DNA from: Streptomyces sp. HUAS MG91
Lineage (GTDB): Bacteria > Actinomycetota > Actinomycetes > Streptomycetales > Streptomycetaceae
NCBI RefSeq assembly: GCF_040529335.1
Contig: NZ_CP159534.1
Span: forward strand, 3,906,001-3,970,000
Direction: 5' to 3'
Length of the DNA stretch: 64,000 nucleotides
In this document: in pieces, positions 1 to 46,773 of the stretch
How the letters are laid out: the number at the start of each line of letters is the position of its first letter
Position numbering within the stretch: the first letter of the stretch is position 1
The notes under the pieces: generated by a model
Told to the model about the DNA's origin: nothing
The model's database searches: none
What the model saw: only the letters and a program-made list of their open reading frames with translations
Made by a program: the position numbers and the translations under genes

Positions 1-1603
1 ACGCCTCACGGGCCTGCCGGTCGTCGAGGTCGCCGACGACGCCTCGCCCCGCGGCGAGCTGGTCTTCGCCCTCTGGGAGCCGCCGCTCACCGAGATGCAG
101 GGCGAGAAGGGCGCCCCGGTGCGCCGCACGGCGACCGCCGAGACGGCCGACCTGCTCACCGACCTCACCGTGCAGGGCATCCGCTCGGTCGCCTTCGTAC
201 GGTCCCGGCGCGGCGCCGAGCTGATCGCGGTGATCGCCCAGGAACGTCTGGCCGAGATCGATCGCTCGCTGCCGCGCCGGGTGGCCGCCTACCGCGGCGG
301 GTACCTCGCCGAGGAACGCCGCGCCCTCGAAGCCGCCCTGCACTCCGGAGAACTCCTCGGTCTCGCCGCCACCACCGCCCTCGAACTCGGCATCGACGTC
401 TCCGGCCTCGACGCCGTGGTGATCGCCGGCTATCCCGGCACCCGGGCCTCCCTGTGGCAGCAGGCGGGCCGTGCGGGCCGCTCGGGCCAGGGGGCACTCG
501 CGGTCCTGGTCGCCCGTGACGATCCCCTGGACACCTATCTGGTGCACCACCCGGAGGCCCTCTTCGAGCAGCCGGTGGAGTCGACGGTCCTCGACCCCGA
601 CAACCCCTACGTCCTGGCCCCGCACCTGTGCGCGGCCGCCTCCGAACTCCCCCTCACCGAACCGGACTTCGCTCTCTTCGGCCCGGCGTCCGCCGAGCTC
701 CTCCCGCAACTGGAGGCGGCGAAACTGCTGCGCCGCCGCTCCGGCACCAAGGCCTGGCACTGGACGCGCCGCGAGTCCGCCGCCGACCTGGCCGACATCC
801 GCGGCGAGGGCGGCGACCCGGTTCAGATCGTCGAGGCGAGCACCGGCCGGCTCCTCGGCACGGTCGACGCCGGCTCGGCCCACACCACCGTCCACGACGG
901 CGCGGTCCACCTCCACCAGGGCCGCACCTACGTCGTCAAGCAGCTGGACCTCGACGACAACGTCGCCCTGGTCGAACCGGCGAACCCCACGTACTCCACG
1001 ACGGCCCGCGACACCACGGCCATCTCCATCCTGGAGACGGACGTCGAGGTCCCGTGGGGCGACGGCTCGCTGTGCTACGGCTCGGTGGAAGTGACCAACC
1101 AGGTCGTCGGCTACCTCCGCCGCCGCCTCATCACGGGCGAGGTCCTCGGCGAGACCAAACTCGACCTCCCTCCTCGTACGCTGCGCACCCGCGCGGTGTG
1201 GTGGACGGTCACCGAGGACCAGCTGGACGCCGCCCGGGTGAACCCCGAGATCCTCGGCGGCGCCCTGCACGCCGCCGAACACGCCTCCATCGGCATGCTC
1301 CCCCTCTTCGCCACCTGCGACCGCTGGGACATCGGCGGCGTCTCGATCCCGCTGCACCCCGACACGCTGCTACCGACCGTCTTCGTCTACGACGGCCACC
1401 CCGGCGGGGCGGGCTTCGCCGAGCGCGCCTTCCACACGGCCAAGGAGTGGCTGACCGCCACCCGCGAGACCATCGCCTCCTGCGAGTGCGAGGCCGGCTG
1501 CCCGTCGTGCATCCAGTCCCCCAAGTGCGGCAACGGCAACGATCCGCTGCACAAGCGGGGGGCGGTCCGCCTCCTCACGACGCTGCTCGAACAGGCGCCT
1601 TGA
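1..1603 (+). CDS. DEAD/DEAH-box helicase with C-terminal DUF1998/MZB zinc domain (5' end missing)
   Basis: Open from the left edge, so only the C-terminal part of the ATP-dependent DNA helicase is here. The frame is open from base 2. The visible part holds the second RecA-like domain, including a TTALELGIDVSGLD stretch and the motif VI sequence QQAGRAGRSGQG. It is followed by the long DUF1998 region and a terminal cysteine cluster (CECEAGCPSC...KCGNGND) that forms the MrfA-type zinc-binding domain. Family members such as Bacillus MrfA act in repair of damaged DNA, and the mycobacterial counterpart is Rv3649. The gene is convergent with the Tad cluster, as in mycobacteria. Family call is firm; the substrate is inference. 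Confidence 0.9.
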   Translation, partial: RLTGLPVVEVADDASPRGELVFALWEPPLTEMQGEKGAPVRRTATAETADLLTDLTVQGIRSVAFVRSRRGAELIAVIAQERLAEIDRSLPRRVAAYRGGYLAEERRALEAALHSGELLGLAATTALELGIDVSGLDAVVIAGYPGTRASLWQQAGRAGRSGQGALAVLVARDDPLDTYLVHHPEALFEQPVESTVLDPDNPYVLAPHLCAAASELPLTEPDFALFGPASAELLPQLEAAKLLRRRSGTKAWHWTRRESAADLADIRGEGGDPVQIVEASTGRLLGTVDAGSAHTTVHDGAVHLHQGRTYVVKQLDLDDNVALVEPANPTYSTTARDTTAISILETDVEVPWGDGSLCYGSVEVTNQVVGYLRRRLITGEVLGETKLDLPPRTLRTRAVWWTVTEDQLDAARVNPEILGGALHAAEHASIGMLPLFATCDRWDIGGVSIPLHPDTLLPTVFVYDGHPGGAGFAERAFHTAKEWLTATRETIASCECEAGCPSCIQSPKCGNGNDPLHKRGAVRLLTTLLEQAP

Positions 1604-1688
1604 GGATCGGGCAGGCGGAGTAGAAGTCGGGCGGGGCAGTAGGCATCGGGCAGGCACTGCCGGAATCAGGCAGGCGCCACAGGCGGAA

Positions 1689-2228
1689 TCAGGCAGGCGC
1701 TGTCGGACGTCGCGGGCCCGGACCGGCTCGGTTCGGGCCCACCCCAGACCGGGCCCACCCCAGACCGGGCCCACCCCAGACCGGGCCCACCCCAGACCGG
1801 GCCCACCCCGGATCGGGCTGATCCGGACCGGTCTCGGCGCCGGTGTCAGGAGCCGCCGGTATCGCCCCGGCAGGCCCCGCCCGTGCCCGTACCTCGGCTT
1901 CCAGCACTCCGCTGCCCGCTCCCGCCGTCACCTCGGCCACCTCCCCGCGCACGGCGCACCGCACGACTCTCGCGCCCTGCGCCCGGGCCACCCGGTCGGC
2001 CACCGCGCAGGCCCGCGCGTCGCCCTTCGCCCACTGCTCGGCCGCCGCGAGCGCGGCCAAGTCGGCCGCCCCGCCCGCCCGGTGCCGGATCTGCACCGCC
2101 TGACCGAGAGCGAGGACGCCCACGAAGACGGCGCCCACCGCGGCCATCGCCATGACGGCCCAGACCGTCGCGGACCCCCGCTCGCCTCTCAGCCGCGCCC
2201 GCCGCCCCTTGCCGCCCGGTCCCGTCAC
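1689..2228 (-). CDS. TadE-like (Rv3654c family) secreted helicase/secretion-locus protein
   Basis: 179 residues. An N-terminal basic stretch is followed by one membrane segment at about residues 20-45 (GSATVWAVMAMAAVGAVFVG). The compact helical domain then has AGGAADLAALAAA, typical of the Rv3654c/TadE-like pseudopilin family found last in actinobacterial tad operons. It probably serves as a minor pilin or cell-surface component of the Flp pilus machine. It overlaps the upstream TadE gene by 4 bp. From about residue 135 the chain is low complexity, built of WARSGVGPVWGGPGLG repeats encoded by a 16-bp DNA tandem repeat; this tail is probably strain-specific and not folded. Confidence 0.8.
   Translation of the reverse strand: MTGPGGKGRRARLRGERGSATVWAVMAMAAVGAVFVGVLALGQAVQIRHRAGGAADLAALAAAEQWAKGDARACAVADRVARAQGARVVRCAVRGEVAEVTAGAGSGVLEAEVRARAGPAGAIPAAPDTGAETGPDQPDPGWARSGVGPVWGGPGLGWARSGVGPNRAGPGPRRPTAPA
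1735..1814. repeat. 16-bp tandem repeat (5 copies) inside a coding tail
   Basis: Unit gggcccaccccagacc is repeated head to tail at 1735, 1751, 1767 and 1783 perfectly, with a fifth copy at 1799 that diverges at its 3' end. The unit is not a multiple of three, so three copies (48 bp) encode a 16-residue period in the minus-strand protein that contains it. A shorter duplication, cggaatcaggcaggcgc at 1661-1677 and 1684-1700, sits at the end of the same gene. Confidence 0.95.
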
Positions 2229-2701
2229 GTCGCCTCCCGCCCTTCCTCCGGAGCGGCGGGCTCCGGGGCCATCTCCGAGGCCGGCTCCGGTGCCGTCTCA
2301 GGGACCGGCTCCGAGGCAGTCCCCGAAGGGATCGGCTCCGGGGCCGTCATCTCCTCGGCCGCCGCGACGGCCTCCGCGCTCAACTCGACGCCGAGCGGCC
2401 CCGGTCCGGCCGCTCGCGCCAGCACCGTCACCCGGACCAGCTCTCCCTCCCGTCTCACCTCGACCCGCGCGCCCCGCGGGGCGGCCTCCCGGGCGGCGGC
2501 CACGGCGGCGCTCTCCGGCTCCTGCCGGGCCACCGCCCTGGCCCCGGTCCGCGCGGCGTCCACGCACCGGATCTGCTCGGACGCCGCCACCACCGCCCAG
2601 ACCAGCGCCATCGTGAACGCCACGAGCACGGGCAGCACCACCGCCGCCTCCGCCGTCACGAACCCGCGATCCCGGTCCCGGCCCGTCTCAGAACGAGCCA
2701 T
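2225..2701 (-). CDS. TadE-family minor pilin
   Basis: 158 residues from the ATG at 2701. This start overlaps the end of the pilin gene by 14 bp and gives MARSETG; a longer reading from 2749 would add an unlikely Arg/Trp-rich leader. The GFVTAEAAVVLPVLVAF segment is the TadE signature: a pseudopilin-like cleavage region with a conserved Glu, then a transmembrane helix. The remainder is a periplasm-side domain ending in a Pro/Glu/Ala-rich tail. It is predicted to take part in Flp pilus assembly with the TadA-TadB-TadC machine encoded upstream. Confidence 0.85.
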   Translation of the reverse strand: MARSETGRDRDRGFVTAEAAVVLPVLVAFTMALVWAVVAASEQIRCVDAARTGARAVARQEPESAAVAAAREAAPRGARVEVRREGELVRVTVLARAAGPGPLGVELSAEAVAAAEEMTAPEPIPSGTASEPVPETAPEPASEMAPEPAAPEEGREAT

Positions 2702-2933
2702 GGAGCGCCTTCGCCACCAGCGACTGCAACGTCGACTGGACCACGTCACTCGTCACCACCTGGTACAGCACCCCGGCGAACCCGACGGCCGCGATCAGCC
2801 CCACCGCGTACTCCGACGTGACCATCCCCGCGTCCCCGCGCGCCGCCGAGCGCACGCCGCGCGCCCACGTCAGCAGAGCTCCCCGCAGCCGCCGGTACGT
2901 CCTAACCGTCCTCGTCCCACGCGTTCCGTTCAT
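2688..2933 (-). CDS. DUF4244 Flp-like pilin
   Basis: 81 residues. After a basic N-terminus, the segment DAGMVTSEYAVGLIAAVGFAG has the prepilin pattern: glycine, a hydrophobic start, Glu at about position +5, then a hydrophobic helix. It is followed by a short C-terminal helix. This is the DUF4244 family, the likely major pilin of the actinobacterial tad locus (Rv3656c in M. tuberculosis). It sits between tadC and tadE. A dedicated prepilin peptidase is not visible in the window, so it would have to act from elsewhere. Confidence 0.88.
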   Translation of the reverse strand: MNGTRGTRTVRTYRRLRGALLTWARGVRSAARGDAGMVTSEYAVGLIAAVGFAGVLYQVVTSDVVQSTLQSLVAKALHGSF

Positions 2934-3000
2934 CTCAACCCCCGTATCAATGTCTGCACTTCAGGGATCCGGCAGTCCCGGATCCCGCTTCCCTCACGCC

Positions 3001-3780
3001 TCAGCGGCCGCCCAACATCCCGCCGCCGAGACCGATCACCACGGGCAGCACCCCGATCACGAGAAAGGCCGGCAGAAAGCACAGCCCCACCGGAGCGGTG
3101 ACGGCCACCGCGGCTCGGCGCGCCACCGCCGTCGCTCTGCGCCCGCGCTCCGCTCTGCACTCGGCGGCGATCCGGGCGACCGGTGCCGCCGCCGGGGCCC
3201 CGGACTCGCCGGCCCGCTCCAGCAGCCGGACCAGCGCGTCGGCATCGGGAAGAACGGCCAACTCCCGCCATGCCACACCCGGTTCACCGCCGAGCCGCAT
3301 CTGCGCCGCACCCCGCGCGAGCCCTCTCCCGACGGGCCCGCCCAACGACTCCCCGACGACCCGCGCCGCCTCCACCGGGTCCGCCCCGGCCGCGATGCAG
3401 GCGGCCAGCAGATCGGCCGCCAGCGGCAGTTGGCGGCGCGCCTCGGCGCTGTCATCCACCCCGGACGAGACCGCCCGGCCCCGCCGCCACCGCCACACCG
3501 CGCCGCCCGCGACGGCCCCGACGAGCAGCCCCGCCGCGCCGCCGACCACCACGTACCCGGCACTCACGGCCCCGGCCACCGGAGCCCACCGGCGCACCAC
3601 GCCCGGCATCCGAAAGCCCCGCGGCGCCGCGTCCACCGCGACGATGTCCAGCACCAGCCGCACCCGCCGCCGAAGCTCCCGCTCCCGCCACCGTCTCTCG
3701 GCCGCCCGCGCGAGCCACACCATCGCCAGCGCGGCACACAGCACCGCCCCCAGCCTGTGGACAACTTCCATATCCCTCAC
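3001..3780 (-). CDS. tadC: Type II secretion F-domain membrane protein, TadC-like
   Basis: 259 residues. An N-terminal membrane helix is followed by a hydrophobic hairpin, then the T2SSF helical bundle (QLPLAADLLAACIAAGADPVEAA) and a C-terminal membrane hairpin ending GVLPVVIGLGGGMLGGR. It is an inner-membrane platform protein of the Flp/Tad pilus apparatus and pairs with the TadB-like protein encoded just upstream. The GTG at 3780 is taken as the start because GGAAGGGAG lies just before it; an in-frame ATG lies three codons later. It corresponds to Rv3657c of the mycobacterial cluster. Confidence 0.85.
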   Translation of the reverse strand: MRDMEVVHRLGAVLCAALAMVWLARAAERRWRERELRRRVRLVLDIVAVDAAPRGFRMPGVVRRWAPVAGAVSAGYVVVGGAAGLLVGAVAGGAVWRWRRGRAVSSGVDDSAEARRQLPLAADLLAACIAAGADPVEAARVVGESLGGPVGRGLARGAAQMRLGGEPGVAWRELAVLPDADALVRLLERAGESGAPAAAPVARIAAECRAERGRRATAVARRAAVAVTAPVGLCFLPAFLVIGVLPVVIGLGGGMLGGR

Positions 3781-39748: not shown

Positions 39749-39893
39749 GAGCGCACCGCCTTCCCTGGCGTACGTAACGGGGCAATTGCGAGCATAAAGC
39801 GATGAAAGGGTGGTGTGCGAGCCCACCCGATCCGCCCGGTCCTGCACACGCATTCTCCCGTTGCTCCGGGCGGGTGAACCGGTGGCCGTCGGC

Positions 39894-39923
39894 CAATCCG
39901 GGTCCGTCAGCGGTCCGGATAGC
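39894..39923 (+). promoter_or_regulatory. ECF-type promoter of the chaplin gene
   Basis: CCAATCC (39894-39900), 16 nt, CGGATAG (39917-39923). The same -35 and spacing occur before the two fasciclin genes and the molybdoenzyme gene, where the -10 is CGGATTC. It lies 71 bp before the chaplin ATG. Sequence pattern only; no sigma factor is known. Confidence 0.65.
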
Positions 39924-39994
39924 CCGTGAGGAACAGAGCGGTTCCTCGTCCCCGCCGGTCGTGCGGGGGCTGTGCGAGCAGTGAGGACGGTTTC

Positions 39995-40273
39995 ATGTCT
40001 CGTGTGCTGAAGAGTGCGGCGGTTCTGGTGGCGGTCGGCGGCGCGGTGCTGGCCGGCGCGGGTGCCGCGGCCGCGGACAGCGGGGCCCAGGGTGCCGCCT
40101 GGGGCTCGCCGGGCGTCGGCTCGGGCAACGTGGTCCAGGTTCCGGTGCACGTTCCGGTCAACGCGTGCGGCAACACCGTCAACGTCGTCGGCCTGCTCAA
40201 CCCGGCCTTCGGCAACAGCTGCGCCAACGGTTCGGACAGCTGGGGCGGCGGCCAGTGGGGTATGTGGAAGTAG
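39995..40273 (+). CDS. Short chaplin (secreted amyloid surface protein)
   Basis: 92 residues from ATG 39995. Signal peptide to about residue 27 (AAAADS). One chaplin domain at about 42-78 (GNVVQVPVHVPVNACGN...NPAFGNSCAN) with C58 and C76, and no sorting signal, so it is of the short secreted class. Chaplins coat aerial hyphae and lower surface tension. Unusual: after the domain a Trp/Gly tail (SDSWGGGQWGMWK) replaces the usual short end. It shares a promoter pattern with the fasciclin and molybdoenzyme genes. Confidence 0.92.
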   Translation: MSRVLKSAAVLVAVGGAVLAGAGAAAADSGAQGAAWGSPGVGSGNVVQVPVHVPVNACGNTVNVVGLLNPAFGNSCANGSDSWGGGQWGMWK

Positions 40274-40389
40274 CTTCCACCCAGCGGTGCGGCAGGCTCG
40301 CCGGGATCCGGTGGGCCCCGCACCCGTCCGATGCGCGCACGGCCACGGATTACCAGTGACAGGCTTACGGTCCTGGTGAGGCGAGTGCG

Positions 40390-40533
40390 ATGACGGACGA
40401 AGAGTTCCAGCGGCTGATGCGGCAGGCCCGCGCGGAGGCACGGCGTACCGGATTGCCCCGGCGGGACGTCAGTCCGCGTGATGTGTACGAGGCGCGGGCG
40501 CGGCACGCGGAGTTCGGGGCCTGCTCGCATTGA
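40390..40533 (+). CDS. Small hypothetical protein (47 residues)
   Basis: ATG 40390 is preceded by GGTGAGG at usable spacing and codon use fits the genome. The peptide MTDEEFQRLMRQARAEARRTG... is charged and helical, with no membrane segment. I do not recognise it. It lies between the chaplin gene and the convergent fasciclin lipoprotein gene. Confidence 0.5.
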   Translation: MTDEEFQRLMRQARAEARRTGLPRRDVSPRDVYEARARHAEFGACSH

Positions 40534-40665
40534 TGCCGGGCCCCGCGCCGGTTGGTGCGAGTGGGAGCGGTGGCGCCGCTTTTCCGGGTGCCACCGCTCC
40601 CGACCGCTGGACACGACCGGCCGGGAAGGCACCGCTGCCCGCCCGGCCCGTCTCCGCCTGTCGTG

Positions 40666-41313
40666 TCAGCTCTTGGGCATCAGGACCGAGTCGATGATGT
40701 AGACGTTGGCGTTGGCGGTCTTGACGTTGCCGCAGACCACGTTTGCGGTGCCGTTGACCTTGTAGGTCTCGCCGGAGCCGGTCGTCATCAGCTTCGACTT
40801 CTCCAGCGTGGGGAACGAGCCCTTCTCCAGGTCCTTGGGCGCCAGCTTCTGGCCCACCACGTGGTACGTGAGGATCTTGGTGAGCTGGGCCTTGTTGTTG
40901 AGGACCTTGTCCAGGTCGGCCTTCGGGATCTTCGCGAAGGCCTCGTTGGTGGGCGCGAAGACCGTGATGTTCTGGGCGTTGTTCAGGGTGTCGACCAGGC
41001 CGGCCTTCTTCACGGCCGTGACCAGCGTCGACAGCGCCGGGTTGTTCGACGCGGCGGTGGCGACCGGGTCCTTGGCCATGCCGTCGAACGAGCCGGCACC
41101 GTCCTTGGGCACCGAGGAACAGGCCGAGCCGAACGGCTTGTCGTCGGTGCTCGTGGCGCCGGACGGGCTGGCCATGTCCGACCCCTTCGACGCCGAGGAG
41201 GCGTTGTCGGAGGACTTGTCCTTGGAGTCGCTGCCGGAGCAGGCGGTCAGGGCCAGCGGCAGCATGGCGGCGGCAGCGACGGCGACGGCGGTACGGCGGA
41301 AGCGAGTCTGCAT
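40666..41313 (-). CDS. Fasciclin-domain lipoprotein
   Basis: 215 residues. Signal with lipobox LTAC (Cys near 25), then a Ser/Lys/Asp-rich linker, then one fasciclin (FAS1) domain of about 130 residues (ITVFAPTNEAFAKI, ILTYHVV, ANVYIIDSVLMP). Displayed on the outer face of the membrane, probably in adhesion or matrix contact. It is nearly identical over the domain to the secreted protein encoded divergently at 41624. This lipoprotein/secreted pair parallels mycobacterial MPT83/MPT70. Its promoter element lies at 41394-41365. Confidence 0.93.
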   Translation of the reverse strand: MQTRFRRTAVAVAAAAMLPLALTACSGSDSKDKSSDNASSASKGSDMASPSGATSTDDKPFGSACSSVPKDGAGSFDGMAKDPVATAASNNPALSTLVTAVKKAGLVDTLNNAQNITVFAPTNEAFAKIPKADLDKVLNNKAQLTKILTYHVVGQKLAPKDLEKGSFPTLEKSKLMTTGSGETYKVNGTANVVCGNVKTANANVYIIDSVLMPKS

Positions 41314-41364
41314 GAGAATCCCTCAACGATCGGAACGGTGAAGGCCCTTCGCCTCCATCGCCGG

Positions 41365-41394
41365 GAATCCGGTGCCCTCGCCGGTGCGGATTGG
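41365..41394 (-). promoter_or_regulatory. ECF-type promoter of the fasciclin lipoprotein gene
   Basis: On the minus strand, CCAATCC (41394-41388), 16 nt, CGGATTC (41371-41365), about 50 bp before the ATG at 41313. Identical boxes and spacing to the promoters at 41481 and 43940. Confidence 0.78.
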
Positions 41395-41480
41395 TCGGTT
41401 CCCCGGACCTCCCCGAAAGAGTGACGCGGGGGGTGGGTGGTCGGCCTCCGGAAGCGGGACACAAATAACCGCAATCCCGA

Positions 41481-41510
41481 CCAATCCATCCACCCCACGG
41501 CGACGGATTC
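41481..41510 (+). promoter_or_regulatory. ECF-type promoter of the secreted fasciclin gene
   Basis: CCAATCC (41481-41487), 16 nt, CGGATTC (41504-41510), about 110 bp before the ATG at 41624. The two fasciclin promoters are divergent, with 86 bp between their -35 boxes. Confidence 0.78.
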
Positions 41511-41623
41511 CTTCTGTGAGAGCGCGAAACGACGCGCCGACCCCCGGTAGCCCGCGCTCTCACCGGCCCCGGGCCGCTCGGGGGCCCGGCGGGTCCGCAG
41601 CCCGCCGCGAAGGAGTGTTGATC

Positions 41624-42205
41624 ATGACCTCTCACCGTGCAAGCACTCGGATCCTGGTCGGGGCGGCGGCGCTCGCGCTGCCGTTCTCGCTGGCGGCGCT
41701 GGCGCCGTCCGCGTCGGCCGACGACATGACGGGCCCGTTCGGACCGGCCTGCTCCTCGGTTCCCAAGGACGGCGCGGGTTCGTTCGACGGCATGGCCAAG
41801 GACCCGGTCGCGACCGCCGCCTCCCACAACCCCGACCTGTCGACGCTGGTCACGGCGGTGAAGAAGGCCGGCCTCGTGGACACGCTGAACAACGCGAAGG
41901 ACATCACCGTGTTCGCGCCGACGAACGAGGCCTTCGCGAAGATCCCGAAGGCGGACCTGGACAAGGTCCTCAACGACAAGGCCCAGCTCACCAAGATCCT
42001 CACGTATCACGTGGTGGGCGAGAAGGTCACTCAGGACAAACTGGCCGACGGCAGCTTCAAGACGCTGGAGGGCAGCAAGCTGACCACGTCGGGCTCCGGC
42101 GAGAAGTACAAGGTCAACGGCACCGCGAACATCGTCTGCGGTGACGTGCCGACCTCGAACGCCACCGTCCACATCATCGACACCGTCCTCATGCCCAAGA
42201 GCTGA
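41624..42205 (+). CDS. Secreted fasciclin-domain protein
   Basis: 193 residues from ATG 41624, preceded by AAGGAG. A Sec signal peptide ending ASA (about residue 32) has no lipobox, so the mature form is free. One FAS1 domain with ITVFAPTNEAFAKIPKAD and VHIIDTVLMPKS. From ACSSVPKDGAGSFDGMAKDP onward it closely matches the divergent lipoprotein, also at DNA level, pointing to a recent inverted duplication. It is followed by a bidirectional terminator facing the molybdoenzyme gene. Confidence 0.93.
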   Translation: MTSHRASTRILVGAAALALPFSLAALAPSASADDMTGPFGPACSSVPKDGAGSFDGMAKDPVATAASHNPDLSTLVTAVKKAGLVDTLNNAKDITVFAPTNEAFAKIPKADLDKVLNDKAQLTKILTYHVVGEKVTQDKLADGSFKTLEGSKLTTSGSGEKYKVNGTANIVCGDVPTSNATVHIIDTVLMPKS

Positions 42206-42247
42206 CCCCGCCTCCGCACAGAGCACCCCGAGACCCCGGAGAACCCC

Positions 42248-42279
42248 GAGGGGCGCGCCGCAACCGCGGCGCGCCCCTC
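42248..42279. terminator. Bidirectional hairpin terminator
   Basis: Perfect 14-bp stem GAGGGGCGCGCCGC / GCGGCGCGCCCCTC with loop AACC, between the convergent fasciclin and molybdoenzyme genes. Confidence 0.9.
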
Positions 42280-42297
42280 CCCACGCCCCGCCCGCGC

Positions 42298-43905
42298 TCA
42301 GTCGACCGTCACGACGACGGAGTGCCAGCCGGAGGCGCCGTCGGGGATGGTGTCGGTGCGCTTCTCGGTCTGGGTCTCGCCGGTGCGGTCGGTGGCCCGT
42401 ACGGTCAGCGTGTGGTTGCCCTTGGCGGCCTGCCAGGGATAGGACCACTGGCGCCAGGTGTCCCGGGTGTCCTCGGTGGCGAGCCGGGCCTCTTCCCACG
42501 GCCCGTCGTCGACCCGTACCTCGACCTTGTCGATGCCGCGGTGCTGCGCCCACGCCACCCCGGCGACCATGACCGTGCCGGACTTCGGGCGGCCGAAGGG
42601 CTTGGGGGTGTCGATGCGCGACTCGGTCTTGATCGGCGCCTCGCGCGCCCAGGACCGCTTGACCCAGTAGGAGTCGTAGGCGTCGAAGGTGGTCAGCTCG
42701 ATGTCCTGGATCCACTTGCAGGCCGATACGTAGCCGTAGAGACCGGGGACGACCATGCGCACGGGGAAGCCGTGCTCGAAGGGGAGCGGTTGGCCGTTCA
42801 TGCCGAGGGCGAGCATCGCGTCGCGGCCGTCCAGCACGTCCTCGACGGGGCTGCCGATGGTCATGCCGTCCACGGAACGGGCCACGAGCTGGTCGGCGGG
42901 ACCGCCCCGGGACGGCGGTTTCACTCCGCAGCGCTTCAGCAGGTCGGCCAGGCGGACGCCGATCCAGCGGGCGTTTCCGACGTACGGGCCGCCGACCTCG
43001 TTGGAGACGCAGGTCAGGGTGATGTCCCGTTCGATGAGCGGCATCTTGAGCAAGTCGGCGAAGGAGACGGTGAGTTCACGCTCGACGCCCTTGCCGTGGA
43101 TCCGCAGCCGCCAGGTGGTGGCGTCGACCTTCGGGACGACCAGGGCGGTGTCGACGCGGTAGAAGTCGCCGTTGGGCGTCATGAACGGGCTGATGTCCTT
43201 GATCCGCAGGGCGGCACCGCGCGGGACCGGGGCCGCGGCCGACGACGGCGCGGGAATCACCACGTTCCCGCGGGAGGCGACGGCGCCCTGTCCCTGTGAG
43301 CTGTTCAGCGCCCGGCCCGCGAGCCCGGCACCGGTGGAGGCCGCGGCCGCCGCCGTCGCGGCCAGGATGAACCCGCGCCGGTCCCAGCCGGTGTCCGGGC
43401 GGTCGGCCTCCGCGGCACCCGGCTCCTGCGGCCGATCCGTGTGCCCGAGCCGTCCGGTCAGCCAGTACAGCAGCCCGGCGCCGACGACGGCCCCGACCGC
43501 CGAGGGCAGGGCGTCGGCGGCGCTCGTCGAGTCCGGCCGGCCGGTGGCGGCCAGCGCCCCGACCACGCCGAACGCGAGCACGCCCAGCGAACCGGCCAGC
43601 CGCCACCGCGTGGCCAGCGCCCCCAGGACCAGCGCGAGCACGGTGAGTACGGCCAGGATGCCGAGTTGCAGGACGAGTTTGTCGTTGGTGCCGAAGTGCC
43701 GGATCGCCCAGTCCTTCACGGCCGGCGGAGTGCGGTCGATCGCCGCGCCGCCGACCGCGACGACCGGGCCGGACTCGGGGCGCACGGCTGCCGAGACCAG
43801 CTCCGCCACGGCGATCGCCGCGTATCCGGCGAGCAGGCCGCTCAGTGCGCCGAGCGACAGGCGTTTGATGCCGCGCAGCGGCTGGTGGGGTGCGTCGTGG
43901 TCCAT
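42298..43905 (-). CDS. Membrane-anchored sulfite-oxidase-like molybdopterin oxidoreductase
   Basis: 535 residues. Residues 1-160 hold four hydrophobic helices. A Tat-like segment DRRGFILAATAAAA at about 175 precedes the exported catalytic part. The SUOX-type molybdopterin domain (about 240-430) carries the Mo-ligating Cys in TLTCVSNEVGG; the C-terminal immunoglobulin-like dimer domain follows (VAGVAWAQHRGIDKVEV). It likely reduces or oxidises a sulfur or methionine-sulfoxide substrate outside the membrane; the electron partner is unknown. The ATG is about 5 nt after a -10 box, so the mRNA should be leaderless. Confidence 0.93.
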   Translation of the reverse strand: MDHDAPHQPLRGIKRLSLGALSGLLAGYAAIAVAELVSAAVRPESGPVVAVGGAAIDRTPPAVKDWAIRHFGTNDKLVLQLGILAVLTVLALVLGALATRWRLAGSLGVLAFGVVGALAATGRPDSTSAADALPSAVGAVVGAGLLYWLTGRLGHTDRPQEPGAAEADRPDTGWDRRGFILAATAAAAASTGAGLAGRALNSSQGQGAVASRGNVVIPAPSSAAAPVPRGAALRIKDISPFMTPNGDFYRVDTALVVPKVDATTWRLRIHGKGVERELTVSFADLLKMPLIERDITLTCVSNEVGGPYVGNARWIGVRLADLLKRCGVKPPSRGGPADQLVARSVDGMTIGSPVEDVLDGRDAMLALGMNGQPLPFEHGFPVRMVVPGLYGYVSACKWIQDIELTTFDAYDSYWVKRSWAREAPIKTESRIDTPKPFGRPKSGTVMVAGVAWAQHRGIDKVEVRVDDGPWEEARLATEDTRDTWRQWSYPWQAAKGNHTLTVRATDRTGETQTEKRTDTIPDGASGWHSVVVTVD

Positions 43906-43910
43906 GCCGT

Positions 43911-43940
43911 GAATCCGTCCTGCCGACCCGTTCGGATTGG
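43911..43940 (-). promoter_or_regulatory. ECF-type promoter of the molybdoenzyme gene
   Basis: Minus strand CCAATCC (43940-43934), 16 nt, CGGATTC (43917-43911). The ATG at 43905 starts only 5 nt beyond the -10 element, consistent with a leaderless transcript. Confidence 0.8.
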
Positions 43941-45015: not shown

Positions 45016-45321
45016 CTACCAGGACGACTTGGTGACCCCGGGCAGGAAACCCGCGTGCGCCTGCTCGCGCACCCGGACCCGGGACAGCCCGAACTTGCGC
45101 AGATGGCCGCGAGGACGGCCGTCCACGCTGTCGCGGTTGCGGACGCGGGTGGGGCTCGCGTCGCGGGGCTGGCGGCCCAGTTCGGCGAGGGCCGCGGTGC
45201 GTTCGGCGGGCGTCGAGGACGGACGGCGGACGGTCTCCTTCAACTCCGCCCGCCGGGCCGCGTACCGCGCGACGACGGCCTTGCGCCGCTCGTTCTTCGC
45301 GATCTTGCTCTGCTTGGCCAT
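45016..45321 (-). CDS. rpsN2: 30S ribosomal protein S14, zinc-independent paralogue
   Basis: 101 residues. [24 protein letters not shown] is the start of the long form of S14, and the CxxC pairs of the zinc-ribbon form are absent ([20 protein letters not shown]). Such C-minus copies are made under zinc starvation and replace the zinc-containing protein. One base overlap with rpmB2 (TGATG). Located beside a likely Zur operator. Confidence 0.94.
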
Positions 45322-45557
45322 CAGACCCTTCCTCCCCGGGCGCGGATGCGCGCGACGGCCGCTTCCACGCCGATGACGTCGACGGTCCTGATGCCGCGGG
45401 CGCTCAACGTCAGGCGTACGTAACGCCCTTCGCCGGGCAGCCAGTAGCGCTTGCGCTGAATGTTCGGGTCGAAGCGGCGCGAGGTGCGGCGGTGGGAGTG
45501 GGAGATGGAGTTGCCGAACCGCGGTCGGGCGCCGGTCAGTTGGCAGTGGGCGGACAT
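45321..45557 (-). CDS. rpmB2: 50S ribosomal protein L28, zinc-independent paralogue
   Basis: 78 residues. [32 protein letters not shown] is typical L28. Only Cys5 remains of the zinc-ligand set, so this is the C-minus form. First gene of the small zinc-stress ribosomal operon, divergent from the COG0523 gene with the shared control region between. Confidence 0.94.
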
Positions 45558-45590
45558 GAAGTGACCTGCCTCTCCTGGAACACGTACTTA

Positions 45591-45618
45591 TTGATAATGG
45601 AAACCATTCCCATATAGT
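45591..45618. promoter_or_regulatory. Promoter with overlapping Zur-like box
   Basis: On the plus strand TTGATA (45591-45596), 16 nt, TATAGT (45613-45618) is a near-consensus housekeeping promoter with the ATG of the COG0523 gene 7 nt beyond it (leaderless). Between the boxes AATGG-aaa-CCATT (45596-45608) and the wider TGGAAACCATTCCCA form a palindrome in line with Zur sites. A single zinc-dependent repressor bound here could silence both directions. Confidence 0.72.
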
Positions 45619-45624
45619 AGCCCC

Positions 45625-46773
45625 ATGATGCGCACCGAAGCACTGCCGGTCGTCCTCGTCGGTGGACTGCACGCCGACGCCCGCCGAACCGTCGTCAAGC
45701 GTCTGCTGACGGCGGTTCCCGGGAGCGTCGCGCTGCACCACGACCTCGCGACCGCCGGGGAGGGGACCGTGCGGCGGCGCGTCAGCGACGCCTCGGGGGT
45801 CCTGGCCACGGGCGACGCGCCCCTCGTCGCCGACTGCGCGTGCTGCGCCCTGCGCGAGGACCTCGTACCGGAGCTGGACCGGCTGGCCGGGGACGGCACG
45901 ACCCGGCTCGCCATCGTCGAGCTGTGGGACTCGGTCGAGCCGAAGGCCATGGCCGAGGTCGTCGTGGCGCACAGCGGTGACGAGCTGGTGCTCACCAACG
46001 TGATCACCGCGGTCTCCCCCGCCCTCGTACTGCCCTGCCTGGGCAACGGCGACGACCTGGCCGAGGCCGGACTGGCGGCCGCCGCGACGGACCGGCGCAC
46101 GGTCGCCGACACCTTCGCCCGGCAGGTGGAGTACGCGCCCGTGCTCGCCCTGGTCGACGACCCGGAGGCGGACGAGCAGGACCACGCGCTGCTCACCCAG
46201 CTCCACCCCACCGCCCGCCGGGTCGACGCGGCGTCGGGCGAACTCGCGGCGCTCGCCTTCGCCGGGTTCGACGTGGAGGCGGCCGCCTCGGCCCAGCATC
46301 CCGCCTGCGCGCGGCTGCCCCAGGAGGCGGACGAGGCGGGCGTGACGACGCTGGTCTGGCACCGGACGCGGCCGTTCCACCCCGAACGGCTCTACCGGGC
46401 GCTGGAGGACCTCTGCTGCGCCGCCGCGCGCAGCCGGGGACGGTTCTGGCTCGCGGACCGGCCCGACAGCCTGCTCGCCTGGGACTGCGCGGGCGGGGCG
46501 CTGTGCGTGGAGAGCGCGGGACCCTGGCTGGCCGCGCTGCCCGACGCGGGCTGGGAGGCGATGCCGCCGGTGCGGCGCGCGGCCGCCGCCCTCGACTGGC
46601 ATCCCGAGTACGGCGACCGCTGCCAGCACCTCGTCTTCACCTCGCCCGGCCTCGACCCCGACGGCATCGAGCGGCTCCTCGGCTCCTGCCTGCTCACCGA
46701 CGCCGAGTACGCGGCCGGGCCGGAGGAATGGCGCCGCCTCCCGGCGTCGTTCGCGCCGTTCCTGGACGCCTGA
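45625..46773 (+). CDS. COG0523/CobW-family protein with lost P-loop
   Basis: 382 residues. [12 protein letters not shown] is the C-x-C-C metal-binding motif of COG0523 zinc chaperones, and the C-terminal CobW_C domain is present ([30 protein letters not shown]). The Walker A region, which should read GxxGAGKT, is [13 protein letters not shown], lacking the Gly-Lys pair, so GTPase action is unlikely. Known relatives (ZigA, YciC) deliver zinc under starvation. It is divergent from the zinc-free ribosomal genes and probably Zur-controlled. Confidence 0.85.

Follow-up and report, generated by a model that had tools for sequence, protein, structure and literature searches.

A shared two-box motif of predicted SigK type ahead of fasciclin, molybdoenzyme and chaplin genes in Streptomyces sp. 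HUAS MG91

Four window genes behind one pair of boxes

A stretch of 64,000 nucleotides (nt) from Streptomyces sp. HUAS MG91 (contig NZ_CP159534.1, positions 3,906,001 to 3,970,000 of the forward strand; here called the window, with positions counted from its first letter) carries genes for a short chaplin, two fasciclins and a sulfite-oxidase-family molybdoenzyme, each preceded by CCAATCC and, after a 16-nt spacer (N16), CGGAT. It is highly likely that these four pairs of boxes are promoters of an ECF19-type (extracytoplasmic function) sigma factor, SigK, which would be restrained by the RskA protein encoded beside it and would govern a stress regulon. An earlier, sequence-only reading of the window had picked out the pattern ahead of these same genes, and all four of its sites were recovered, each oriented toward the gene named, with CGGATTC as the seven-base second box in three cases and CGGATAG at the chaplin. 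Its positions held for the sites beginning at 41394, 41481 and 43940 and were off by one at the chaplin site, which starts at 39893 and not at 39894.

The chaplin gene (39995..40273, plus strand) encodes 92 amino acids with a ChpA-C domain (Pfam PF03777, 98 bits) and a signal peptide recognised by eye; its predicted SigK-type promoter occupies 39893..39920 on the same strand, with the -35 box CCAATCC at 39893-39899 and the -10 box CGGAT at 39916-39920. The two fasciclin genes, which have the same boxes and spacing, encode paralogues that are 76% identical. One (40666..41313, minus strand; predicted promoter 41367..41394, minus) specifies a 215-residue FAS1 lipoprotein (PF02469, 120 bits) with the lipobox LTAC, assigned by eye, in an MPT83-like layout; fasciclin genes of other Streptomyces are also preceded by sites of this promoter type. 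The other (41624..42205, plus strand; predicted promoter 41481..41508, plus) specifies a secreted, MPT70-like FAS1 protein of 193 residues (PF02469, 131 bits), for which MPT70 (1nyo, 125 bits) is the top bacterial chain in the PDB, four human TGFBI chains scoring higher. The molybdoenzyme gene (42298..43905, minus strand; predicted promoter CCAATCC-N16-CGGAT at 43913..43940, minus) encodes 535 residues (PF00174, 149 bits) with an N-terminal membrane part seen by eye and a molybdopterin-binding domain, and its PDB matches are SorA (80 bits) and sulfite oxidases. From the -10 box to the start codon there are 74 nt at the chaplin, 53 at the fasciclin lipoprotein, 115 at the secreted fasciclin and 7 at the molybdoenzyme, whose ATG therefore predicts a leaderless mRNA; a start codon near the -10 box is also seen at the molybdoenzyme genes of many other Streptomyces.

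The sequence-only reading would have been refuted by equally frequent matches in random coding sequence; in shuffled window sequence there were none. The exact form CCAATCC-N16-CGGAT occurs four times in the window and in none of 100 dinucleotide shuffles. Allowing R (A or G) at two places and one mismatch returned only the same four sites, a number that 5 of the 100 shuffles reached, and two mismatches gave nine sites against 4.6 expected, with nine reached in 7 of 100 shuffles. Within the window only the exact form of the motif is strongly informative.

The sigK-rskA locus and the motif across the host genome

Searching the whole genome (8.6 Mb in two contigs), as the sequence-only reading had proposed, returned just six copies of CCAATCC-N15..18-CGGAT, four of them inside the window, and no copy of the reversed pattern. 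The form CCAATCC-N16-CGRAT likewise occurs six times, at the four window sites and at C1:811191 and C1:819595, and the same boxes separated by 20 nt (N20) do not occur at all. The site at C1:811191 precedes a plus-strand operon whose order is amine oxidase, DUF1365, two Cfa-type methyltransferases (labels assigned by eye), DUF1295 and a photolyase-related protein (DPRP). The site at C1:819595, in the form CCAATCC-N16-CGAAT, precedes sigK, which together with rskA lies on the minus strand, convergent with the amine-oxidase operon; a further pair, CCGATCC-N16-CGGAT at 819631, faces an alpha/beta hydrolase gene divergent from sigK.

The sigK gene (G000:C1:818979-819560, equivalent to L008:14977-15561, minus strand) encodes 194 residues with sigma region 2 (PF04542, 51 bits) and region 4 (PF08281, 52 bits). 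Its best PDB match is Mycobacterium tuberculosis SigK (4nqw, 156 bits), the next scoring 73 bits, and of the 16 scored among 77 candidates in the genome no other matches SigK at E<=1e-30. It has just two cysteines, C139 and C189, which line up with the pair of the mycobacterial protein, and their 50-residue spacing is common to both, the M. tuberculosis pair being C133/C183 (PMC7509140). The adjoining rskA (C1:818248-818667, minus strand) is the sole gene of the genome with an RskA_C domain (111 bits); it also matches zf-HC2, and its RskA_N match of 27.3 bits lies just above the cut-off of 27. By eye, its N-terminus, HTLTGAYAVHAL, is close to the AS19-1 consensus HTLAGAYALDAL of PMC7406223, and the peptide pattern HxxxCxxC is found in 42 of 43 RskA N-termini from fetched loci, five of the 43 being copies of the host's own. 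Group labels differ between sources, as M. tuberculosis SigK is placed in ECF18 in PMC7509140 and its RskA in AS19-1 in PMC7406223. The protein called SigK in S. coelicolor (SCO6520, PMC9205884) was considered as a counterpart and set aside, being a SigB-like factor instead.

Since the motif precedes sigK, and sigK adjoins the only RskA_C gene of the genome, the sigma factor that the sequence-only reading had left unnamed can, with high probability, be identified as this SigK under the restraint of RskA. That reading had suggested a two-box ECF-type promoter and a small regulon, and had drawn a parallel with mycobacterial SigK; these proposals are supported by the same boxes at sigK, which is paired with rskA, at the amine-oxidase operon, at the same kinds of genes in other Streptomyces and at 7 of 18 fasciclin genes of a second actinobacterial family, and by the co-occurrence of the motif with RskA described below.

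Relaxing the first box to CCRATCC at N16 gives 11 genome matches, among them an overlapping pair, one site per strand, at 2155304 and 2155307. This pair (C1:2155304) and the site at C1:4774817 were rejected as promoters because they lie inside coding open reading frames (ORFs), and no clear gene could be attached to a relaxed site with a 15-nt spacer at C1:2053129. A last relaxed site, CCGATCC-N16-CGAAT at G000:C1:1608803-1608830 (L013), stands 52 nt ahead of a gene for an FKBP-domain lipoprotein; it is not present at the sole other orthologue found (26 genomes, E<=1e-60), and the gene is an unconfirmed candidate for membership.

Distribution of the motif within and beyond Streptomyces

The dependence on spacing is seen most clearly around the fasciclin genes of named Streptomyces, in 79 loci from the best 80 of 246 candidates. 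When CCRATCC and CGRAT were sought there at every spacing from 6 to 35, 97 sites were found at 16 nt, 17 at 17 nt, and 0 to 3 at each other value, although these sites are not independent, as the loci have shared ancestry and some come from the same genome. Taking the 115 sites with spacers of 15 to 18 nt and asking which of 13 query proteins was nearest downstream, the molybdoenzyme was met 43 times, a fasciclin of the lipoprotein type 22 times and of the secreted type three times, SigK 15 times, the amine oxidase nine, the chaplin four, the hydrolase three and RskA once, leaving 15 sites with none. Six of the 100 assigned sites (L049 7832, L087 6035, and those in L078, L085, L096 and L103) are too distant, lie in a gene or are oddly placed, which reduces the total to 94. 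A strict site is present in 45 of the 79 loci, in 18 directly upstream of the fasciclin gene and in 27 before an upstream molybdoenzyme gene, three further sites inside the molybdoenzyme gene having been excluded from the 27. The molybdoenzyme appears to be a frequent member of the predicted regulon in the Streptomyces loci examined. Among 96 CCAATCC-N16 sites with complete flanks the motif extends to about gaCCAATCCg, and C and G are favoured ahead of the -10 box.

Of 121 Streptomyces genomes, 91 contain CCAATCC-N16-CGRAT, with 269 sites in total, against 32 sites in 26 genomes (0.26 per genome) for the same boxes at N20. The reversed pattern is present in only six genomes; its TA-rich words are rare in high-GC genomes, which limits its value as a control, and the conclusions rest on the same boxes at other spacings. 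RskA_C is encoded in 96 of the 121 genomes, and the motif occurs in 84 of these 96 and in 7 of the 25 others (Fisher p 1.4e-8, in which the independence of related genomes is overstated). The mean number of sites per genome is 2.7 where RskA is present and 0.32 where it is not, the latter value being near the N20 background. Class-wide, a count at the level of whole genomes placed the motif in 130 of 296.

Thirty sites from the genus, one from each of 30 genomes, were also inspected for the protein encoded downstream, which was SigK in five cases, the molybdoenzyme in four and a weak RskA match (32-41% identity) in four, with none of the queries at the remaining 17. At six of these 17 (L020, L025, L030, L031, L036, L039) the site is flanked on one side by a second SigK-RskA pair, with SLAAPYALDAL early in its RskA, and on the other by a divergent gene, which is DUF4331 in both loci scanned (L020 and L039). 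The two divergent stretches of L020 are 3-1460 (minus strand) and 1672-3020 (plus strand), and CCAATCC-N16-CGAAT stands between such a pair and its divergent neighbour. The same motif precedes a zf-HC2 anti-sigma-like gene in L028 and L046 (L046:1635-2291, plus strand, in the scanned locus) and probably also in L033, L034, L035 and L044, the four loci with weak RskA matches. Related sigma factors in other Streptomyces may, on these sequence grounds, share one promoter code.

The chaplin appears to be a local rather than a general member. Only one of the 12 chaplin matches in the host genome has a SigK-type site, and the idea that chaplins are general SigK targets in Streptomyces was dropped, as 28 of 30 chaplin loci fetched from a longer list have no site ahead of the chaplin and two have one. 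Close orthologues of the window chaplin (84-88% identical) that do have the site were found in S. longispororuber PBR1, Streptomyces sp. SID5785, VRA16 and PsTaAH-137; the spacer is 17 nt in the first of these, and PsTaAH-137 has two copies. In four of those chaplin loci, which were fetched by way of the fasciclin and are thus a biased sample, the chaplin lies no more than 8 kb from a fasciclin gene. The capture of a chaplin by SigK looks like a lineage-specific addition.

Outside the genus, the clearest comparison is with a second family represented by 15 genomes, of which 11 have fasciclin matches, 18 in total. This family is probably the Mycobacteriaceae, because one genome (G198) has two fasciclin genes on the same strand separated by about 2.2 kb, an arrangement that we take to resemble that of mpt83 and mpt70 around dipZ. 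The pattern NNNATCC-N15..18-CGRAT occurs in 9 of the 18 fasciclin loci and its reversed control in none, and the 11 listings correspond to 10 distinct places, one place being listed under both L226 and L237. A like-oriented site lies upstream of seven of the 18 fasciclin genes (L229, L231, L232, L233, L234, L237, L239), four of the seven in the form CCMATCC-N16-CGAAT; in L243 the site points the other way. When the first box is set to YCVATCC, nine listings have a spacing of 16 and one a spacing of 17, other spacings giving 0 to 2.

A predicted SigK regulon, its parallels and its rivals

The proposed mechanism would begin at the membrane, where RskA, as an anti-sigma factor, would keep SigK inactive until envelope stress caused its release, as in the mycobacterial system. 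Free SigK would then bind the boxes and bring RNA polymerase to CCAATCC-N16-CGRAT, turning on its own gene together with rskA, the amine-oxidase/DUF1365/Cfa-type/DUF1295/photolyase-related operon, probably the alpha/beta hydrolase, and the two fasciclins, molybdoenzyme and chaplin of the window. The response might comprise a change in membrane lipids, the repair or shielding of exported proteins, and the addition of surface proteins. The sites, the gene order and pairs, the protein families, their conservation and their co-occurrence can be read directly from the genomes, and SigK binding and the retention and release of SigK by RskA are the steps that the model would add to them.

The closest known system is the SigK-RskA regulon of M. 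tuberculosis and its relatives (mpt83, dipZ, mpt70), in which an ECF sigma factor is likewise encoded beside RskA and a fasciclin lipoprotein and a secreted fasciclin are likewise targets. Mycobacterial SigK-RskA is also linked to an amine-oxidase/Cfa-type operon, as in the Streptomyces host. The predicted Streptomyces targets add a membrane molybdoenzyme and, locally, a chaplin; the window fasciclin genes diverge from each other and enclose no dipZ, and sigK-rskA, with a site of its own, is convergent with the amine-oxidase operon. A further difference is that the Streptomyces RskA keeps HxxxCxxC, whereas M. tuberculosis RskA is described as not dependent on a zinc motif (PMC7406223). The RpoE-ChrR system of Rhodobacter sphaeroides offers a second parallel, as its singlet-oxygen ECF regulon includes a fasciclin (RSP_1409), Cfa-type enzymes and a photolyase, with neither a chaplin nor a molybdoenzyme among the available rows of the regulon table (PMC7074977); host SigK, however, scores 156 bits with M. 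tuberculosis SigK and 73 with the R. sphaeroides factor. Chaplins in Streptomyces are reportedly under ECF sigma factor control by BldN-RsbN, going by a 2012 title of Bibb, and the system proposed here differs both in its sigma factor and in touching a single chaplin of the host.

The stimuli of mycobacterial SigK have been called obscure (PMC9861118). Judged from the gene set, the most likely signal in Streptomyces would be photo-oxidative or other oxidative damage to the envelope, and the hints that point this way are analogies from other organisms: the R. sphaeroides regulon just mentioned, the rise with light of mpk83 and mpk70 in M. kansasii (about 6- and 3-fold; PMC9861118), and the decrease of RskA under ultraviolet light in a soil actinobacterium (PMC8965627). 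A broader scenario, which we put forward as less likely than not, is that SigK/RskA answers photo-oxidative damage to the envelope, that in one small lineage it captured a chaplin, and that ECF19 paralogues in other Streptomyces use almost the same promoter for further exported proteins such as DUF4331. If this were so, light or oxidants could trigger assembly of the hydrophobic surface coat, in addition to the BldN developmental programme.

Several observations weigh against the proposed SigK regulon. The correlation with RskA is imperfect, with 12 of 96 RskA-positive genomes lacking the motif and 7 of 25 RskA-negative genomes having it. Of the 30 genus sites only 13 had a query protein downstream, the four weak RskA matches among them probably represent another anti-sigma family, and 4 of the 17 unmatched sites (L017, L023, L029, L038) lie inside coding ORFs. 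Neither kind of fasciclin site is present in 32 of the 79 fasciclin loci, a further two being cut off by contig ends; some of these 32 do show a variant first box, GCAATCC or CCCATCC, 16-17 nt from CGAAT or CGGAT, an uncontrolled observation. Thirty fetched SigK loci, Streptomyces included, yielded a strict site in 11, ahead of sigK in nine. Among 40 SigK upstream regions from outside the genus, the relaxed pattern was found 4 times against 1 in the reversed control, a looser pattern 9 times against 17, and a spacing of 16 was hardly enriched (5 against up to 4 elsewhere). Chaplin membership, finally, is confined to the host strain and the four other genomes seen, which speaks against the chaplin as a genus-wide target.

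The alternative that best survives these data is that a different ECF sigma factor reads the promoters and counts the sigK locus among its targets. Streptomyces have many ECF sigma factors, and of the 77 candidates of the first SigK look 16 were scored; moreover, the same boxes elsewhere in the genus precede other anti-sigma and SigK types. This alternative is nevertheless unlikely, given the lone strong SigK match among those scored, the single RskA_C gene, the site ahead of sigK itself, the fall of the motif almost to its N20 background where RskA is missing, and the nearly identical boxes at some fasciclin genes of the second family. It is very improbable that the boxes are instead an operator bound by a repressor or activator, a view favoured by their good conservation: the half-sites differ in sequence and keep a fixed order, the spacer is nearly always 16 or 17 nt, and the position of the molybdoenzyme start, similar in many relatives, is that expected after a leaderless -10 box. 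Least credible of all is the view that the match has no role in regulation and reflects chance or similarity inherited with the flanks. Even if the promoters of the paralogous fasciclins might be copies of one another, and relaxed forms show weak enrichment or none in the window, the exact motif is absent from the shuffles, depends strongly on spacing in related loci, and precedes genes as unrelated as those for the chaplin, molybdoenzyme, amine oxidase and SigK.

No description of a SigK regulon in Streptomyces was found in the literature searched, which included few subscription journals and is not proof that none has been published. What seems to be new is the predicted Streptomyces regulon itself, its molybdoenzyme, and a chaplin in the host and four other strains only. 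MPT70 and MPT83, the mycobacterial fasciclin targets of SigK, are known mainly as antigens, and if the assignment to SigK is correct, harmless and genetically tractable Streptomyces would offer a way to study what the fasciclins do, why SigK has its two cysteines and which signal it answers, with envelope photo-oxidative stress as a testable idea offered by the gene set. The chaplin would then be a developmental coat protein placed under a stress sigma factor.

Elsewhere in the window, at 45016-46773, a CobW-type gene (CobW_C) has as neighbours genes for ribosomal protein L28, assigned by Pfam, and for an S14-like protein, assigned by eye. The group resembles a cluster of zinc-starvation paralogues, the link to zinc being one that we presume.

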